A stretch of DNA of 23,510 nucleotides from the NCBI RefSeq assembly GCF_000497445.1, contig NZ_CM002285.1, forward strand, positions 1,865,319 through 1,888,828, written 5' to 3'. Within the stretch, counting starts at the first letter, position 1; each line of letters starts with the position of its first letter. Of this stretch, positions 8,520-19,907 are shown one piece after another. A program made the translations under genes and the position numbers. Origin of the DNA: Streptomyces roseochromogenus subsp. oscitans DS 12.976 (GTDB lineage: Bacteria; Actinomycetota; Actinomycetes; Streptomycetales; Streptomycetaceae). The notes beneath the pieces were generated by a model. It saw nothing but the letters and a program-made list of their open reading frames with translations. It had not been told where the DNA came from and ran no database searches.

Positions 8520-9191
8520 TCAGTGCCCGTCGTCTTCGAGGAGTCCGGCGTCGTACGCCAGCAGCGCGATCTGTACGCGGTTGTCCAGGTCGAGCTTCGC
8601 GAGGATGCGGGAGACGTGGGTCTTGACGGTGGCCACGCTCATGAACAGGTCGGCGGCGATCGCGGCGTTGGCGAGGCCGCGGCCGACGGCGACGGCGACC
8701 TCGCGCTCGCGGTCGTTGAGGACGGCGAGCCGGTCACGTGCGCGTGCCTGGCGTGCGTCGGCGGCGCTGCCGGCCGCGTGCCGCATCAACTGCCGGGTGA
8801 CGGCGGGCGACAGCACGGGATCGCCGGCCGCGACCCGGCGTACGGCGTCGACGATCTCGGCGGGCGGGGTGTCCTTCAGCACGAATCCGGCGGCGCCCGC
8901 GCGCAGGGCGTGCAGCACCTGCTCGTCGGCGTGGAAGGTGGTGAGCACCACGACCTGCGGGGCGTCGGCCCGTGCGCGCAGCCGCCCGGTCGCGGTGAGC
9001 CCGTCCACCGACGGCATACGGATGTCCATGAGGACGACGTCGGGCCGGGTGCGCGAGACGAGTTCCTCGGCCTGGGCGCCGTCCGCGGCCTCCCCGACGA
9101 TCTCGATGTCCTCGGCCCCGCCGATCATCAGGGCCAGCCCGGCCCGGACCAGCGGGTCGTCGTCGACGAGGAGGAGTCTGATCGGCGTCAT
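8520..9191 (-). CDS. NarL/LuxR-family response regulator
   Basis: This 223-residue protein has an N-terminal receiver domain with the acidic pair Asp10/Asp11, phospho-acceptor Asp56 (VLMDIRMP) and conserved Lys106 (VLKDTPP). The C-terminal LuxR helix-turn-helix spans about 156-215 (LNDREREVAVAVGRGLANAAIAADLF, then VATVKTHVSRILAKL). The ATG at 9191 (MTPIRLLLVDDD) puts the receiver domain at the very N-terminus, with AAGG close upstream. It lies 62 bases downstream of the sensor kinase and is surely its partner. The target genes are unknown; the downstream P450 is a candidate. Confidence 0.93.
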   Translation of the reverse strand: MTPIRLLLVDDDPLVRAGLALMIGGAEDIEIVGEAADGAQAEELVSRTRPDVVLMDIRMPSVDGLTATGRLRARADAPQVVVLTTFHADEQVLHALRAGAAGFVLKDTPPAEIVDAVRRVAAGDPVLSPAVTRQLMRHAAGSAADARQARARDRLAVLNDREREVAVAVGRGLANAAIAADLFMSVATVKTHVSRILAKLDLDNRVQIALLAYDAGLLEDDGH

Positions 9192-13422: not shown

Positions 13423-14553
13423 TCAGCCGCCCAGTTCCTGGTGACGGGCGGCGAGGCCCGCCGCGCCCTGCTCCGTCAGGGAGCCGAACAGGCGCAGGCG
13501 GGAGATGCCGCCGTCGGGGAAGATGTCGATCCGGGCGTGTGTGCCGACGGCCGGCTCGGGGAGCACGAAGCGGTGGTCGGTGTCGGGCTGGAGGCGGGTG
13601 CGCGGCAGGATCTCGGTCCACTCGCCGCTCTCGCCGTCCTTGACGGAGACCGAGGCCCAGCCCGCGCTGTTGCCCTTCAGATAGGCGGTGTCGATCTCGA
13701 CGGCGCGGATCTGCGCCTGGGCGACCAGCTGGTAGCGGATCCAGTCGTTGCCCTGGTCACGGCGGCGGCGGGTCTCCCAGCCGTCGTCCATCTTGCGGGA
13801 GCGGCCCGGCTGGATGGTGTTGGTGGCCGGGGAGTAGAAGAGGTTGGAGGCGTCCTCGACCCGGCCGCCGTTCTCCAGGGCGACCACGTCGAAGGTGCCG
13901 AGGACCGCGAGCCACTCGGGGTCGGGGACGACCTCGCCGTACACCCGCAGGCGGGCGATGCCGCCATCGGGGTGCTGGTTGACGCGCAGATGCGTGAAGC
14001 GCTGCTCGACCGATACGGAGAAACCGTTCGCCGCGTGGCCGCCGACCGGGGTGCGCGGGACGAGGGTCGTCCACTTCACGTCGCCGGAGAGCAGTTCCCC
14101 GGGCGAGGGCGAACCCGGTACCGAGGCGGCCTCGACGGAGACGGCCTGCGGGTAGTTGCCGCGGAAGTGGGCGGTGTCGACGACGATCCCGCGGATCACC
14201 CCGGGCGCGCCGAGGCGGACCAGCGCCCAGTCGTGGTCCTCCGCGGCCGGCCACGGGTGCTCGGCGGAGACACCGCGCCGGCGGCGGGTCTCCCAGCCGT
14301 CCATGATCTTGCCTTTGTGCCCGAAGTGCTCGGGGTCGAACTCGGCCCGCTCGGGCACCAGCAGGTTCTCCCGCTGGGCGAAGAACTCGTCGTTGGCGGC
14401 GATGACACCGGCGCCGAGCTGCCGGTCGGCGAGGTTGGCGTACTGGGTGAAGGGGAAGTCGGCGGTGCGGTAGTCCGCGTACGGGTCGCCGCCTCCGTAG
14501 GGGTTCGCGTCGCCGGTGAAGCTCGCCAGACTCGATTGATGCAGCGCCGTCAC
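13423..14553 (-). CDS. alc: Allantoicase
   Basis: This 376-residue enzyme hydrolyses allantoate to ureidoglycolate and urea. It shows the two-repeat structure of the family: DGWETRRRR at 85-93 and again at 257-265, with HPDGGIARLRVYG (194-206) mirrored by FPDGGISRLRLFG (345-357). The N-terminal FPFTQYANLADRQLGAGVIAANDEFFA is characteristic. Length is normal and no key motif is missing. The start is a GTG at 14553 with an AAAGGAA about 12 bases upstream. It follows allantoinase by 54 bases in the same direction and is surely co-transcribed. The symbol alc is the usual family name; Streptomyces annotations vary. Confidence 0.95.
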   Translation of the reverse strand: MTALHQSSLASFTGDANPYGGGDPYADYRTADFPFTQYANLADRQLGAGVIAANDEFFAQRENLLVPERAEFDPEHFGHKGKIMDGWETRRRRGVSAEHPWPAAEDHDWALVRLGAPGVIRGIVVDTAHFRGNYPQAVSVEAASVPGSPSPGELLSGDVKWTTLVPRTPVGGHAANGFSVSVEQRFTHLRVNQHPDGGIARLRVYGEVVPDPEWLAVLGTFDVVALENGGRVEDASNLFYSPATNTIQPGRSRKMDDGWETRRRRDQGNDWIRYQLVAQAQIRAVEIDTAYLKGNSAGWASVSVKDGESGEWTEILPRTRLQPDTDHRFVLPEPAVGTHARIDIFPDGGISRLRLFGSLTEQGAAGLAARHQELGG

Positions 14554-14607: not shown

Positions 14608-15948
14608 TTACTGGGGGCGGGCGAGCAGGGAGCCCTTGGGCTCGGTGAACTCGCCGCCGTCGACGATGCGTTCGCCGCGCAGCCAGGTGGACTTCACTAC
14701 GCCGTACAGGGTCTTGCCGGCGTACGCGGTGACCCGGTTGCGGTGCTGGAGGCCGGCCGGGTCGACGGTGAACGTCTCGTCGGGGGCGAGGACGGCGAAG
14801 TCGGCGTCGCGGCCCGGGGCGATGGCGCCCTTGGAGGCGTCCAGGCCCACGAGTGCGGCCGTCCGCGTGGACATCCAGCGCACGACGTCCTCCAGGCCGT
14901 ACCCACGCGCGCGTGCCTCGGTCCATACGGCGGAGAGGCTGAGCTGGAGACCGGAGATGCCGCCCCAGGCGGTGGCGAAGTCGGCGGTCTTCAGGTCGGC
15001 GGTGGAGGGCGAGTGGTCGGTGACGACACAGTCGATGGTGCCGTCGGCCAGCGCCTCCCAGAGCAGGTCCTGGTTGGCGGCCTCCCGGATGGGCGGGCAG
15101 CACTTGAACTCGCTGGCGCCGTCCGGGACTTCCTCGGCGGTGAGGACGAGGTAGTGCGGGCAGGTCTCCACGGTGACGCGGACGCCCTCGGCGCGGGCGG
15201 CGCGGATCAGCGGCAGCGCGTCACTGGAGGAGAGGTGCAGGACGTGCACGCGCGCGCCGATCCGCTTCGCCTGCGCGATGAGGTTCGCGATGGCCGCGTC
15301 CTCGGCGTCGCGCGGGCGGGAGGCAAGGTAGTCGGCGTACCTGGGGCCGCCGTGCTGCGGGGCGGCGGCCAGGTGGTGCGGGTCCTCGGCGTGCGCGATC
15401 AGCAGGCCGCCGAAGCCGGCGATCTCCGCCAGGGACTGGGCGAGCTGGTCCTGGTCGAGGTGCGGGAACTCGTCCACGCCGGACGGGGACAGGAACGCCT
15501 TGAAGCCGAAGACGCCGGCGTCGTGCAGCGGGCGCAGGTCCTTGACGTTGTCCGGCAGGGCGCCGCCCCAGAAGCCGACGTCGATGTGCGCCTTGTCGGC
15601 GGCGACCTGCTGCTTGATCCGCAGGTTCTCGACCGTGGTGGTCGGCGGGAGGGAGTTGAGCGGCATGTCGATCAGCGTGGTGATGCCGCCGGCCGCCGCC
15701 GCGCGGGTGGCGGTCCAGAAGCCCTCCCACTCGGTGCGGCCCGGGTCGTTGACGTGCACGTGGGTGTCGACGAGGCCGGGCAGCAGGACGTGGTCGCCGA
15801 AGTCCTCCAGCCGTGCGCCGGCCGGGATCTCCGTGTCGTACGACAGGACGGCCGTGATCTTCCCGGCGGACACGGCGACCGAGGCGGCCCGCGTCCCTTC
15901 CGGAGTGATGACGCGCGTCGTGCGCAGGACCAGTTCAGCGTCGGACAC
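14608..15948 (-). CDS. allB: Allantoinase
   Basis: This 446-residue cyclic amidohydrolase opens allantoin to allantoate. Metal ligands visible in order are His63 and His65 (DTHVHVN), Lys150, the carboxylated lysine (GFKAF), His186 (IAHAED), His238 (LHLSS) and Asp311 (TDHSP). Their spacing closely follows E. coli AllB (59, 61, 146, 186, 242, 315). The GTG at 15948 has AGAGGGG about eight bases upstream. It is the first gene of the leftward allantoin operon and diverges from the IclR regulator gene across a 274-base region rich in inverted repeats, where its regulation must lie. Confidence 0.96.
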
Positions 15949-16012
15949 CCGAACCCCTCTCTGTACCGCCGTTTTACGCCCCAGAAACGGGATTTACACC
16001 CACGTAACGGAT

Positions 16013-16029
16013 TTCAACGTTCTGTTGAA
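16013..16029. promoter_or_regulatory. Inverted repeat in the allantoinase promoter region
   Basis: TTCAACGTTCTGTTGAA has perfect 6-bp arms and a 5-base centre. Its half-sites (TTCAAC) differ by one base from the TTCCAC half-site of the presumed AllR operators, but the spacing is two bases longer. It could be a variant AllR site for the leftward operon. Confidence 0.4.
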
Positions 16030-16099
16030 GGAGTCTTCACTCCCACTTCTCCGTCGTCAAGGGGCACACTGCTGGGCAGCGCGCACCCTGCACTCACTC

Positions 16100-16128
16100 T
16101 GGACGTTTCCACAAAGCGGAATTAGAAT
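16100..16128 (+). promoter_or_regulatory. Promoter of the IclR (allR) gene
   Basis: A -35 TGGACG (16100-16105) and a -10 TAGAAT (16123-16128, five of six consensus bases) are exactly 17 bases apart. The AllR-type dyad at 16107-16121 fills the spacer. The expected start point is near 16135, giving a leader of about 88 bases. Confidence 0.65.
16107..16121. promoter_or_regulatory. AllR operator candidate 1
   Basis: TTCCACAAAGCGGAA has a TTCC/GGAA dyad with an internal C/G pair. It matches the site before malate synthase (18164-18178) at 13 of 15 bases and, like it, lies in a promoter spacer. Binding here would give autoregulation. Confidence 0.7.
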
Positions 16129-16222
16129 TCCAGCAAGCAGAACGTAGCTACGTACAAGCAGGGAGTCAACCGACTGCCGGGTAGGCTTCTGCACTCCTGC
16201 CAGCCCCCGAAAGGAACGCGCC

Positions 16223-17017
16223 GTGCCGACGTCCAGCGCCAGCACCACCGACTCCGCCAAGCCCTCCGCCGGGGGCGGTGTCCAGTCCCTGGAGCGCGCC
16301 TTCGACCTGCTCGAACGGATGGCGGACGCGGGCGGCGAGGTCGGTCTGAGCGAGCTGTCCGCGACCAGCGGGCTGCCGCTGCCGACCATCCACCGGCTGA
16401 TGCGCACCCTGGTCGCCTGCGGCTACGTCCGCCAGCAGCCGAACCGGCGGTACGCGCTCGGCCCCCGGCTCATCCGGCTCGGCGAGTCGGCGTCCCGGCT
16501 GCTCGGCACGTGGGCGCGGCCGTATCTCGCCCGGCTGGTCGAGGAGACCGGCGAGACCGCGAACATGGCGCTGCTCGACGGCGACGAGATCGTGTACGTG
16601 GCGCAGGTGCCGTCGAAGCACTCGATGCGGATGTTCACCGAGGTGGGCCGGCGGGTGCTGCCGCACTCGACCGGAGTGGGCAAGGCGCTGCTGGCCGGGG
16701 TGCCCGACGACGACGTGCGGGCCCTGCTGGCGCGTACCGGGATGCCCGCGGCCACGGAGAAGACCATCACCACGCCCGAGGGGTTCCTGGCCGCGCTGGA
16801 GGATGTACGACGCACCGGGTACGCCGTCGACGACAACGAGCAGGAGATCGGCGTGCGGTGCCTCGCGGTGTCCGTGCCCGAGTCTCCGACGGCTGCGGCG
16901 ATTTCGATCTCCGGGCCCGCTGGACGGGTTACCGAAGCCGCGACCGACAAGATCGTGCCGGTACTGCAGCAGATCGCCCTTGAGCTGTCTCAGGCCTTGG
17001 CGAGTTCTGGCGCCTGA
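16223..17017 (+). CDS. allR: IclR-family repressor of allantoin catabolism (AllR type)
   Basis: This 264-residue regulator has an N-terminal winged helix at about 20-85 (VQSLERAFDLLERMADAGGE, then LSELSATSGLPLPTIHRLMRTL) and an IclR effector domain at about 95-260 with HSTGVGKALLA (148-158) and VDDNEQEIGVRCLAV (202-216). The GTG at 16223 has a strong AAAGGAA seven bases upstream. It diverges from allantoinase. In S. coelicolor the orthologue AllR is reported to repress allantoin genes and to be released by allantoate; assignment here rests on family, position and the shared operator. Its stop codon lies in a small hairpin shared with the convergent gene. Confidence 0.92.
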   Translation: MPTSSASTTDSAKPSAGGGVQSLERAFDLLERMADAGGEVGLSELSATSGLPLPTIHRLMRTLVACGYVRQQPNRRYALGPRLIRLGESASRLLGTWARPYLARLVEETGETANMALLDGDEIVYVAQVPSKHSMRMFTEVGRRVLPHSTGVGKALLAGVPDDDVRALLARTGMPAATEKTITTPEGFLAALEDVRRTGYAVDDNEQEIGVRCLAVSVPESPTAAAISISGPAGRVTEAATDKIVPVLQQIALELSQALASSGA

Positions 17018-17031
17018 AGGGGGTGCCCTTC
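17016..17031. terminator. Small hairpin between convergent genes
   Basis: Arms gaaggg (17016-17021) and cccttc (17026-17031) form a 6-bp stem with a 4-base loop. The left arm overlaps the allR stop codon, and the hairpin lies 15 bases beyond the stop of the convergent gene. It could end both transcripts. Confidence 0.4.
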
Positions 17032-17045
17032 TCGGGGAGCCGCAC

Positions 17046-17363
17046 TCAGCCCCGCTGTGTCGGTTCCCCGAAGAGGTTGACCGCTTCCCGGACCCCGCTC
17101 AGGCCCCTCGCCAAGGCGCTCACCGAACCGATCGCTCCCGCGATCAGTAACAGGGAGTTGCGCAAGCGCGGGATCTCCGGCGAGCCGCCGGAGGCCATCG
17201 CCGCGAGCGCGGCCAGTTCGTCCTCGGCGATGGCGCGGTCGGGGAACTCGGACGGGAGCGCGGCCAGTTCGCGGCGCAGCCGGGACACCGCGGTCCGCAG
17301 TTCCGCCACTCTCGGGTCCTCGTAGCTGCCGGTCACCGGTCTCTGCCCCAAGCTCCGCAACAC
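17046..17363 (-). CDS. Small DUF5955-like protein
   Basis: This 105-residue protein matches, from memory, an actinobacterial family of unknown function (DUF5955). An alpha-helical, heptad-like N-terminal half (RVAELRTAVSRLRRELAALP, about 18-37) is followed by a hydrophobic helix at about 70-87 (SLLLIAGAIGSVSALARG). The C-terminus, GVREAVNLFGEPTQRG, is polar. It may associate with the membrane or form helical bundles. The start is GTG at 17363 with a very strong purine-rich GGAGGG site. It lies on the strand opposite to its neighbours, between allR and the nucleotidyltransferase gene. No function can be assigned. Confidence 0.8.
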   Translation of the reverse strand: MLRSLGQRPVTGSYEDPRVAELRTAVSRLRRELAALPSEFPDRAIAEDELAALAAMASGGSPEIPRLRNSLLLIAGAIGSVSALARGLSGVREAVNLFGEPTQRG

Positions 17364-17494
17364 AGCCCTCCCCCCTCACACGCCGTCGTGCGCGGGCCAG
17401 TAAACGCCACCGCGTCCGGGAGCGCCACAGCGCAGACCGAAATTCAGCCCAAGGGAAACCGGCCGCCCCGGCCTTCGTCAGGTATGCAGGACTC
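17364..17494. other. Divergent spacer
   Basis: This 131-base gap lies between two divergent starts and must hold both promoters. I see no TTCCAC-type AllR dyad here and no clear -35/-10 pair. Confidence 0.35.
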
Positions 17495-18097
17495 ATGACG
17501 GAGAACCATCACGAGGAGGTCGCCGGGCTGCTGCTCGCCGCCGGCGGGGGCAGACGGCTCGGCGGGCGGCCCAAGGCGCTGCTGACGCACCGGGGGCGGC
17601 CGCTGGTCGAGCATGCGGTGGGGGTGCTGCGCGCGGCCGGATGCGCGCGGGTGCACGTCGTACTGGGCGCCCGGGCCGACGAGGTGCGGGCGCGGGCCGA
17701 TCTGAGCGGCTGTGCACTCGTGGACAACCCCGACTGGGCCGAGGGCATGGGTTCCTCGCTGCGGGCCGGACTTGCCTCGCTCGACGGCACGGGGGCGCGG
17801 GCCGCCCTGGTGAGCCTGGTCGACCAGCCGGGCATCGGGCCGGCGGCCGTGGCGCGGGTACTCGGCGCCTACGAGGACGAGAAATCGCTGGTCTCGGCCA
17901 CCTACGACGGCACGCGCGGGCATCCGGTGCTGTTCGGCGCGGCCCACTGGGCGGACATCGCGGCGACCGCCACCGGGGATCGTGGCGCTCGCGCCTATCT
18001 GACGGAGCACGCGGCTCGGATCCGGCTCGTGGAGTGCGCGGACGTGGCCGAACCGTACGACATCGACACCGAGGCCGACCTGCGCCACCTTGAGTGA
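17495..18097 (+). CDS. MobA/MocA-like nucleotidyltransferase
   Basis: This 200-residue protein has the MobA-like NTP-transferase fold: the nucleotide loop GLLLAAGGGRRLGGRPK (11-27, Lys27 in the signature), NPDWAEGMGSSLRAG (78-92), the metal-binding LVDQP (108-112) and RGHPVLF (141-147), ending with DIDTEAD (189-195). MocA/MobA enzymes attach CMP or GMP to molybdopterin. The GMGSS and RGHP motifs are those of MocA-type cytidylyltransferases that serve xanthine dehydrogenase, which would fit a purine-degradation cluster, though no dehydrogenase gene lies in the window. The ATG at 17495 has CAGGA about five bases upstream. A hairpin follows the stop. Confidence 0.85.
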   Translation: MTENHHEEVAGLLLAAGGGRRLGGRPKALLTHRGRPLVEHAVGVLRAAGCARVHVVLGARADEVRARADLSGCALVDNPDWAEGMGSSLRAGLASLDGTGARAALVSLVDQPGIGPAAVARVLGAYEDEKSLVSATYDGTRGHPVLFGAAHWADIAATATGDRGARAYLTEHAARIRLVECADVAEPYDIDTEADLRHLE

Positions 18098-18098
18098 A

Positions 18099-18123
18099 GA
18101 AGGTGGCACTGGGCGCCACCTTT
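18099..18123 (+). terminator. Terminator after the nucleotidyltransferase gene
   Basis: Arms aaggtggc (18100-18107) and gccacctt (18115-18122) pair perfectly with a 7-base loop, followed by TTTCC. It starts two bases after the stop codon and separates this gene from malate synthase. Confidence 0.7.
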
Positions 18124-18157
18124 CCTCGACTCAGAGAATCTCGACATCAACAAACCA

Positions 18158-18186
18158 TTGAAGTTCCACAATGAGGAAACTACTAT
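18158..18186 (+). promoter_or_regulatory. Promoter of malate synthase
   Basis: TTGAAG (18158-18163) and TACTAT (18181-18186) are exactly 17 bases apart. The expected start is near 18193, giving a leader of about 90 bases. The spacer is filled by an AllR-type dyad. Confidence 0.7.
18164..18178. promoter_or_regulatory. AllR operator candidate 2
   Basis: TTCCACAATGAGGAA is a dyad with six paired positions, matching the allR promoter site at 13 of 15 bases. It lies wholly between the -35 and -10 of the malate synthase promoter, where bound repressor would exclude RNA polymerase. Confidence 0.72.
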
Positions 18187-18236
18187 CCACTGTTCAGAAG
18201 CGCCTGCCCGCACAGTCGGCGCTGATTGCCCTATTC

Positions 18237-18281: not shown

Positions 18282-19907
18282 ATGTCCGCACCAGCGCCGT
18301 CCCCGCTGGCCATCGTCGACGCCGAGCCCCTGCCCCGGCAGGAAGAGGTCCTCACGGACGCGGCGCTCGCCTTCGTGGCGGAGCTGCACCGACGGTTCAC
18401 CCCGCGCCGTGACGAACTCCTCGCCCGCCGGGCCGAGCGCCGCGCCGAGATCGCCCGCACCTCCACGCTCGACTTCCTCCCCGAGACGGCCGCGATCCGC
18501 GCGGACGACTCCTGGAAGGTCGCCCCGGCCCCGGCCGCGCTGAACGACCGGCGGGTCGAGATCACCGGCCCCACCGACCGCAAGATGACCATCAACGCGC
18601 TCAATTCGGGCGCGAAGGTCTGGCTCGCCGACTTCGAAGACGCCTCCGCGCCGACCTGGGAGAACGTGATCCTCGGCCAGGTCAACCTGATCGACGCCTA
18701 CACCCGGAACATCGACTTCACCGACCCGGGTTCCGGGAAGTCGTATGCCCTGCGCCCGAACGGGGAGCTGGCGACCGTCGTCATGCGGCCGCGCGGCTGG
18801 CACCTGAACGAGCGGCACCTCGTCGACACCGACGGCACGCCCGTCCCCGGCGCCTTGGTCGACTTCGGCCTCTACTTCTTCCACAACGCCCAGCGGCTGC
18901 TGGACCTCGGCAAGGGCCCGTACTTCTACCTGCCGAAGACCGAGTCGCACCTCGAGGCGCGGCTGTGGAACGACGTGTTCGTGTTCGCGCAGGACTACGT
19001 CGGCATCCCGCAGGGCACCGTCCGCGCCACCGTCCTGATCGAGACGATCACGGCCGCGTACGAGATGGAGGAGATCCTCTACGAACTCCGCGACCACGCC
19101 GCAGGGTTGAACGCCGGGCGCTGGGACTACCTGTTCTCCATCGTGAAGAACTTCCGGGACGGCGGCGCCAGGTTCGTCCTGCCGGACCGCAACGCGGTCA
19201 CGATGACGGCCCCGTTCATGCGGGCGTACACCGAACTCCTCGTCCGCACCTGCCACAAGCGCGGCGCGCACGCCATCGGCGGCATGGCGGCCTTCATCCC
19301 GTCCCGCAAGGACGCCGAGGTCAACAAGGTGGCCTTCGAGAAGGTCCGCGCCGACAAGGACCGCGAGGCGAACGACGGCTTCGACGGCTCCTGGGTCGCC
19401 CACCCCGACCTCGTCCCGATCGCCATGGAGTCCTTCGACAAGGTCCTCGGCGACAAGCCGAACCAGAAGGACCGGCTGCGCGAGGACGTCCACGTCGAGG
19501 CGGCCGACCTCATCGCGATCGACTCGCTGGACGCGAAGCCGACGTACAACGGACTCGTCAACGCCGTCCAGGTCGGCATCCGGTATATCGAGGCCTGGCT
19601 GCGCGGGCTCGGCGCGGTCGCCATCTTCAACCTGATGGAGGACGCGGCCACCGCCGAGATCTCCCGCTCGCAGATCTGGCAGTGGATCAACGCGGGCGTC
19701 GAGTTCGAGAACGGCGACAAGGCCGCGCCCGAGCTGGCCCGCAAGGTCGCCGCCGAGGAACTGTCCAACATCCGCCAGGAGATCGGCGAGCAGGCCTTCG
19801 CGGCCGGCCACTGGCAGGAGGCCCACGATCTGCTGCTGCGGGTCTCCCTGGACGAGAACTACGCCGACTTCCTCACCCTGCCGGCGTACGAGCAGCTGAA
19901 GGGCTGA
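18282..19907 (+). CDS. aceB: Malate synthase A
   Basis: This 541-residue enzyme condenses glyoxylate with acetyl-CoA to malate. It has the full isoform A layout: [17 protein letters not shown] (112-128), the substrate motif VMRPRGWHL (167-175), VLIET (251-255), [10 protein letters not shown] (333-342) and [18 protein letters not shown] (451-468), whose Asp454 corresponds to the family's catalytic base. The ATG at 18282 has AAGGAAG about ten bases upstream. In this setting it removes glyoxylate coming from ureidoglycolate as well as from the glyoxylate shunt. Its promoter carries an AllR-type site. The stop lies three bases from the stop of the convergent SelW-like gene, and its terminator lies inside that gene. 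Confidence 0.97.

Follow-up and report, generated by a model that had tools for sequence, protein, structure and literature searches.

The window analysed here is a 23.5-kilobase (kb) stretch of Streptomyces DNA at chromosome positions 1865319-1888828 in a 9.78-megabase genome. On the minus strand, it carries an allantoicase gene (13423..14553; PF03561, E value 1.3e-86) and the allantoinase gene allB (14608..15948; TIGR03178, 634.8 bits versus a cut-off of 357.85); on the plus strand, it carries allR, which encodes an IclR-family regulator of 264 amino acids (16223..17017; Pfam HTH_IclR and IclR_C), a gene for a MobA-like nucleotidyltransferase (17495..18097), and aceB, which encodes a malate synthase of 541 amino acids (18282..19907; Pfam MS_N, MS_TIM-barrel and MS_C; TIGR01344, 846.6 bits with a cut-off of 594.5). 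Our subject is a pair of 15-base-pair (bp) dyads, one upstream of allR and one upstream of aceB, as candidate binding sites of AllR. The AllR protein has the N-terminal helix-turn-helix domain (PF09339, E value 8.5e-19) and the C-terminal effector domain (PF01614, E value 3e-41) of the IclR family, and its gene adjoins the allantoinase and allantoicase genes, the neighbourhood of Streptomyces AllR. Among the matches listed, AllR is 99% identical to its counterpart in Streptomyces sp. IMTB 2501. The allR loci used for comparison were the best 80 of 564 candidates, and the sample therefore leans to close relatives; 78 are labelled Streptomyces, one Microtetraspora, and one Actinobacteria bacterium, and allB is present in 79 of the 80.

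Upstream of allR, the strong dyad TTCCACAAAGCGGAA (16107..16121, plus strand) fills the 17-bp spacer of a promoter with the -35 element TGGACG (16100..16105) and the -10 element TAGAAT (16123..16128). The strong dyad TTCCACAATGAGGAA (18164..18178, plus strand) likewise fills the 17-bp spacer of the aceB promoter, between TTGAAG (18158..18163) and TACTAT (18181..18186). Both placements, and the identity of the two sites at 13 of 15 positions, had been described from the letters of the DNA in an earlier sequence-only reading, and we confirmed them. The two dyads sit in intergenic stretches of 274 bp (allR) and 184 bp (aceB). Within the window, a search for TTCCACAAWGMGGAA that tolerated up to three mismatches gave four matches versus 0.52 expected, and none of 100 shuffles reached four; these matches are the two strong sites, the aceB site on the opposite strand, and a weak dyad at allR. 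Conservation was counted as TTCC-N7-GGAA within 260 bp of the gene, in loci with enough upstream DNA. This pattern is found in 71 of 79 allR loci (8 misses) and 57 of 60 aceB loci (3 misses), nearly all of which are Streptomyces. The sequence-only reading had held that two such alignments of dyad and promoter are unlikely to arise by chance, and both the excess of window matches and this conservation bear it out.

When regions are anchored on the dyad, the aceB promoter reads TTGAAC or TTGAAG, 17 bp, and TANNNT in 57 of 57 regions. At allR, TGGACG is kept in 51 of 71 regions and TANNNT in 63 of 71; the inner bases of this -10 vary freely, the pattern expected of a genuine -10 element. As a separate observation on the allR leader, CGTAGCTACG is a perfect 10-bp palindrome (window 16143-16152) that occurs exactly in 37 of 80 allR upstream regions, with CGTAGCT in 58 of 80.

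A genome scan with the motif, as the sequence-only reading had proposed, identified perfect copies of TTCCNCAANNMGGAA at five places, four of which belong to allR, aceB, hyi, and gcl. Outside the window, these copies lie at genome positions 1937826 (just 5' of hyi) and 1944281 (just 5' of gcl), and one is apparently intragenic. TTCC-N7-GGAA itself has 113 places in the genome (about 1 per 87 kb) versus 40 for the reversed control pattern. The gene after 1937826 has hydroxypyruvate isomerase (hyi; TIGR03234) as its best NCBIfam match, at 315 bits and thus under the cut-off of 353, and it is followed by a gene for 2-hydroxy-3-oxopropionate reductase (glxR; TIGR01505, above the cut-off). The gene after 1944281 encodes glyoxylate carboligase (gcl; TIGR01504, 1181.5 bits with a cut-off of 711). 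In the best 30 of 35 strong matches for each gene, TTCC-N7-GGAA is found upstream of hyi in 27 of 30 regions and upstream of gcl in 28 of 29. We also scored sites with a profile built from 14 strong sites only, whose own scores range from 16.9 to 25.3; a score of at least 12 was reached in all 30 hyi regions and all 29 gcl regions. A catalase gene between hyi and gcl has a one-mismatch copy of the motif upstream. The operator is thus common to allR, aceB, hyi-glxR, and gcl, with the catalase gene included at one mismatch, and the genes that bear it mostly serve glyoxylate disposal: hyi, glxR, and gcl belong to its glycerate branch and aceB to its malate branch.

The fifth of these places, at genome position 247158 (TTCCACAAGGAGGAA), has flanks that look protein-coding by eye, and we took it as chance. 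As a separate observation, the catalase promoter repeats ACTTCTAGGCTCCACAA (L001:8811-8845, with starts at 8811 and 8829), a duplication of a likely -10 element and half of the putative AllR dyad.

At allR, aceB, hyi, and gcl, the strong dyad has a weaker partner at a distance of 21 bp. This weak dyad is TTCCAGCAAGCAGAA at allR (16128..16142, plus strand) and ATCCACTGTTCAGAA at aceB (18185..18199, plus strand; conserved in aligned regions as judged by eye), and the weak partners at -21 are TTCCATACAGCAGAA for hyi and TTCCAGATAGTAGAA for gcl. When the second-best profile site was sought within 15-45 bp, it fell at exactly 21 bp in 77 of 80 allR regions, 31 of 61 aceB regions, 30 of 30 hyi regions, and 29 of 29 gcl regions, versus 2-5% in shuffles; the allR and aceB counts include the window, and one too-short allR region and one gcl locus were dropped. 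A genome-wide scan for the corresponding 36-bp pattern, TTC-N9-GAA-N6-TTC-N9-GAA, gives perfect matches only at allR, hyi, and gcl and three matches with one mismatch, aceB among them; the reversed control has three places in all.

The strong dyad lies upstream of the weak one at allR and aceB and downstream of it at hyi and gcl, where it is 3' of the -10 element in the promoters that we assigned (TTGACA-18-CAATCT for hyi and TTGACG-17-TACATT for gcl). Spacer filling, as set out in the sequence-only reading, therefore holds for the allR and aceB promoters but is not a rule shared by hyi and gcl. With hyi and gcl promoters as we assigned them, the feature common to the four promoters would be a weak dyad that starts close to where the -10 element ends, between its fifth base and the third base past it. 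The earlier picture of the operator as one dyad in a spacer is corrected in the same way: the position is right at allR and aceB, but each dyad is just half of a tandem pair spaced by 21 bp.

In the arrangement that we propose, each operator would pair two dyads of the TTCC-N7-GGAA kind. With a separation of 21 bp, two turns of the helix, both would face the same side of the DNA, and an AllR tetramer (two dimers) would thus most likely bind them together. It is unlikely that AllR instead binds the TTCC dyads as separate dimers next to a non-functional partner that is mainly -10 or start-site sequence. The partner does overlap or adjoin the -10, and it is weak at aceB, where half of the regions favour another offset; however, it is a TTC-N9-GAA-like dyad rather than a -10 sequence, it keeps the distance of 21 bp whether it precedes the strong dyad (hyi and gcl) or follows it (allR and aceB), and it recurs outside Streptomyces, as described next.

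In a class-wide sample of 118 genomes, a close AllR homologue is present in 30, of which 22 are outside Streptomyces. Three loci, L134, L142, and L143, each represent a different family outside the one to which Streptomyces belongs; their AllR is 60-65% identical, and their divergent allR and aceB genes flank the dyad. In two other loci (L151 and L152), an exact dyad is present but is not located between allR and aceB, and in L150, where aceB is on the same strand, the promoter falls outside the fetched stretch, and the locus is therefore uninformative. A primary site scoring at least 5 was found in 17 of the 22 non-Streptomyces loci, and 11 of these 17 have a partner at 21 bp (3.5% in shuffles); four of the 11 belong to one genus, and by genus the partner occurs in 8 of 12 scorable ones, with 3 further genera dropped. 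The recognition-helix core (TIHR, SIHR, or TVHR) is kept in all five loci with an exact dyad. Separately, in three non-Streptomyces AllR homologues (L145-L147) the helix is altered to LPYGTIHR, and the DNA fetched around their genes contains no exact TTCC dyad. Taken together, the evidence points to AllR as the protein that would bind the TTCC dyads. The sequence-only reading had predicted AllR autoregulation and direct control of aceB; this prediction is strongly supported by the comparison, through conservation and the divergent loci, and although it stays a prediction, AllR very probably controls both its own gene and the malate synthase gene.

We therefore consider it likely that each of the two 15-mers is the stronger half of a tandem AllR operator, that tetramer binding would block the promoters, and that an intermediate of the allantoin pathway would release them. 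The dyads, their spacing, their overlap with the allR and aceB promoters, their conservation, and the set of genes that carry them are features of the DNA; from these we infer AllR as the binder, its tetramer, repression, and the effector. At allR and aceB, the strong dyad fills the spacer between -35 and -10 and the weak dyad begins at the end of the -10, whereas at hyi and gcl the weak dyad would begin near the -10 with the strong dyad 21 bp downstream. Bound AllR would thus cover the -10 or the start region, and RNA polymerase would be blocked at allR, aceB, hyi, and gcl. AllR would be released by an allantoin-breakdown intermediate (allantoate or glyoxylate, the effectors reported for S. 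coelicolor AllR), and malate synthase and the glyoxylate carboligase branch would be switched on together. If so, one switch would govern both malate synthase and the glyoxylate carboligase branch; the allR-aceB site recurs in three further families, and an exact 36-bp candidate operator is now available for the repressor of allantoin breakdown.

Several observations weigh against this interpretation. The counts within Streptomyces are not independent of each other. The presence or absence of AllR was tried as a test of the motif and dropped, as it is uninformative within a genus in which 147 of 150 genomes (our own counted) have an AllR ortholog (E value 1e-60 or better), and the comparison was therefore widened to the class. 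In that wider sample, exact TTCC-N7-GGAA is present in just 5 of 22 non-Streptomyces loci, 5 of the 22 loci were dropped before the spacing count because they had no primary site, and 3 of the 11 partners score <2. The same recognition-helix core also occurs in many loci without an exact dyad, so that it offers weak support. At aceB, the weak dyad scores just 2.2, and another offset scores higher in 30 of 61 regions (42 bp in 20, 24 bp in 9, and 16 bp in 1). The catalase site is 1 of 50 one-mismatch matches in the genome, compared with 26 for the control with up to one mismatch; no dyad scoring at least 12 is found in 10 of 24 catalase regions, and the 21-bp partner occurs in 3 of 14 scorable ones (4.8% in shuffles). 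Lastly, the allB promoter in our own genome has no good operator, only a decayed dyad.

That promoter, assigned by eye on the minus strand (16032..16060), consists of the -35 element TTGACG (16055-16060), 17 bp, and the -10 element AAGACT (16032-16037). The decayed AllR dyad (15998..16012, minus strand; ACCCACGTAACGGAT in plus-strand letters) scores 1.8 versus 16.9-25.3 for the 14 profile sites. Between this dyad and the -10 element, just downstream of the latter, is a second palindrome, TTCAACAGAACGTTGAA (16013..16029, minus strand), whose pattern TTCAAC-N5-RTTGAA is found in 78 of 78 allB upstream regions. In 31 of these 78 relatives, a good AllR dyad (score of at least 12) abuts the palindrome. 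The sequence-only reading had expected glyoxylate disposal to be coupled to allantoin breakdown; the glyoxylate genes do share the motif, but the direct link through allB is weaker here than in those relatives because our own dyad has decayed.

The allB promoter also bears on whether the TTCC-N7-GGAA dyads belong to another glyoxylate regulator, with AllR using a different sequence such as TTCAAC-N5-GTTGAA at allB. In favour of this idea, allB is the classical target, the TTCAAC palindrome is its best-kept one, and the AllR-like dyad abuts it in fewer than half of the regions. However, a TTCC dyad lies in allR's own promoter in most loci, and divergent allR and aceB flank it in the three loci of other families, which have no TCAAC palindrome; all 30 hyi regions carry the TTCC pair and none carries TCAACA-N4-RTTGA, and TTCCRCAATRYGGAA fits the IclR-family group 1 consensus. 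We regard assignment to another regulator as quite improbable. That two AT-rich promoters resemble each other by chance against a G+C-rich background is hardly credible; the AT-richness of the promoters and the 113 genome places of TTCC-N7-GGAA could be cited in its favour, but it is already contradicted by the conservation at both genes, the motif at other pathway genes, and the 21-bp partner.

A copy of the second palindrome also accompanies the AllR operator at aceB: ATCAACAAACCATTGAA (18146..18162, plus strand) is separated by 1 bp from the AllR dyad that follows and overlaps the aceB -35 with its right arm, and TCAACA-N4-RTTGA is found next to TTCC in 57 of 60 aceB regions. The same pattern precedes the catalase gene in 24 of 24 regions. 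In our own genome it has seven places, compared with two for the control pattern: allB, aceB, the catalase gene, a uraD-uraH-uricase-permease operon, a cydA-like gene, and two places inside predicted open reading frames. The catalase and urate-operon copies, of the TTCAACA-N3-TGTTGAA type, lie at L001:8781-8797 and L120:8637-8653, and the right arm overlaps the likely -35 at aceB, catalase, and uraD. We considered the TTCAAC palindrome as the AllR site and rejected it as our main interpretation, given that it was not found in TTCC-bearing non-Streptomyces allR-aceB loci or in the 30 hyi regions. As a side observation, the palindrome upstream of the cydA-like gene (L085:4926-4942, genome position 4802925) is a perfect TTCAAC copy; the gene's matches to models of cytochrome bd oxidase subunit I stay under the respective cut-offs.

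The gene immediately 5' of uraD encodes an HTH_22 (YheO-like) regulator (L120:8694-9323). This gene was detected in 8 of 118 genomes of the class-wide sample (E value 1e-20 or better), all Streptomyces, and the palindrome is beside it in 7 of the 8 loci; in L157, no palindrome is beside the gene, and one is found elsewhere on the same contig. There may be a second, undescribed regulator that would act on TTCAACA-N3-TGTTGAA to control the urate operon, allantoinase, catalase, and malate synthase, with a site that abuts that of AllR at aceB and, in some species, at allB; we put the chances of this proposal at about even, and the HTH_22 gene 5' of uraD is the first candidate. If it is correct, aceB and the catalase gene would combine two inputs, one from the urate side and one from the glyoxylate side. 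The second palindrome, which may belong to an unrecognised regulator of purine catabolism, is possibly the more interesting lead of the two.

With regard to known systems, the nearest is the AllR regulon of S. coelicolor (Navone et al. 2015, AEM 81:6649). The S. coelicolor protein reportedly represses allantoin-pathway genes, its binding motif is said to have been determined, and allantoate and glyoxylate are said to release it; it has also reportedly been found to affect antibiotic production. S. violaceoruber (L028), a close relative of S. coelicolor, carries the same allR and aceB sites as our genome. In S. coelicolor, too, the gene belongs to the IclR family and has allantoinase and allantoicase genes as neighbours, in agreement with the SCO6247 and SCO6248 annotations. 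The best NCBIfam match of our AllR is BhcR (NF045644), a glyoxylate-sensing IclR regulator of the beta-hydroxyaspartate cycle; at 200.8 bits, far under the cut-off of 350, AllR is therefore not a member of that equivalog. By sequence, the closest PDB chains are 1mkm and 2ia2, both from other IclR proteins. E. coli AllR, an IclR-family protein and by name and function also a regulator of allantoin and glyoxylate use, was matched at 5.7e-25 (1tf1) and is outranked by E. coli IclR (1td5).

The operator itself can be compared with the IclR-family motifs compiled by Suvorova and Gelfand (2021; PMC8222616). Its group 1 consensus is GKTYCRYW3-4RYGRAMC, which TTCCRCAATRYGGAA fits; a TTYCRYWWWRYGRAA-like dyad is found at our operators, with the aceB site departing at one position. 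Tandem sites with 18-22 nucleotides between centres are described there in 94 ortholog groups and are related to tetramers. In our operators, a strong and a weak dyad are spaced by 21 bp; the second dyad is weak at aceB, and the pairing is not general at the catalase gene. The E. coli AllR motif is given as KTTGGAAWAWTWTTCCAAC (Table 1 of PMC8222616), with the arms TTGGAA...TTCCAA, whereas ours are TTCC...GGAA; the arms are in opposite order, and the operator is therefore not of the E. coli AllR type. The label "AllR-type" in the sequence-only reading is thus apt insofar as Streptomyces AllR is the predicted binder, but not as a reference to the E. coli operator: the name AllR is common to the two organisms by function, and the operator here is of the other IclR class. 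Judging by titles and the beginnings of abstracts, none of the papers listed deals with this operator or with a regulator acting on TTCAAC sites, which does not prove that none exists. IclR-family tandem operators and Streptomyces AllR are both already known, and the operator pair described here is a further example of that architecture.

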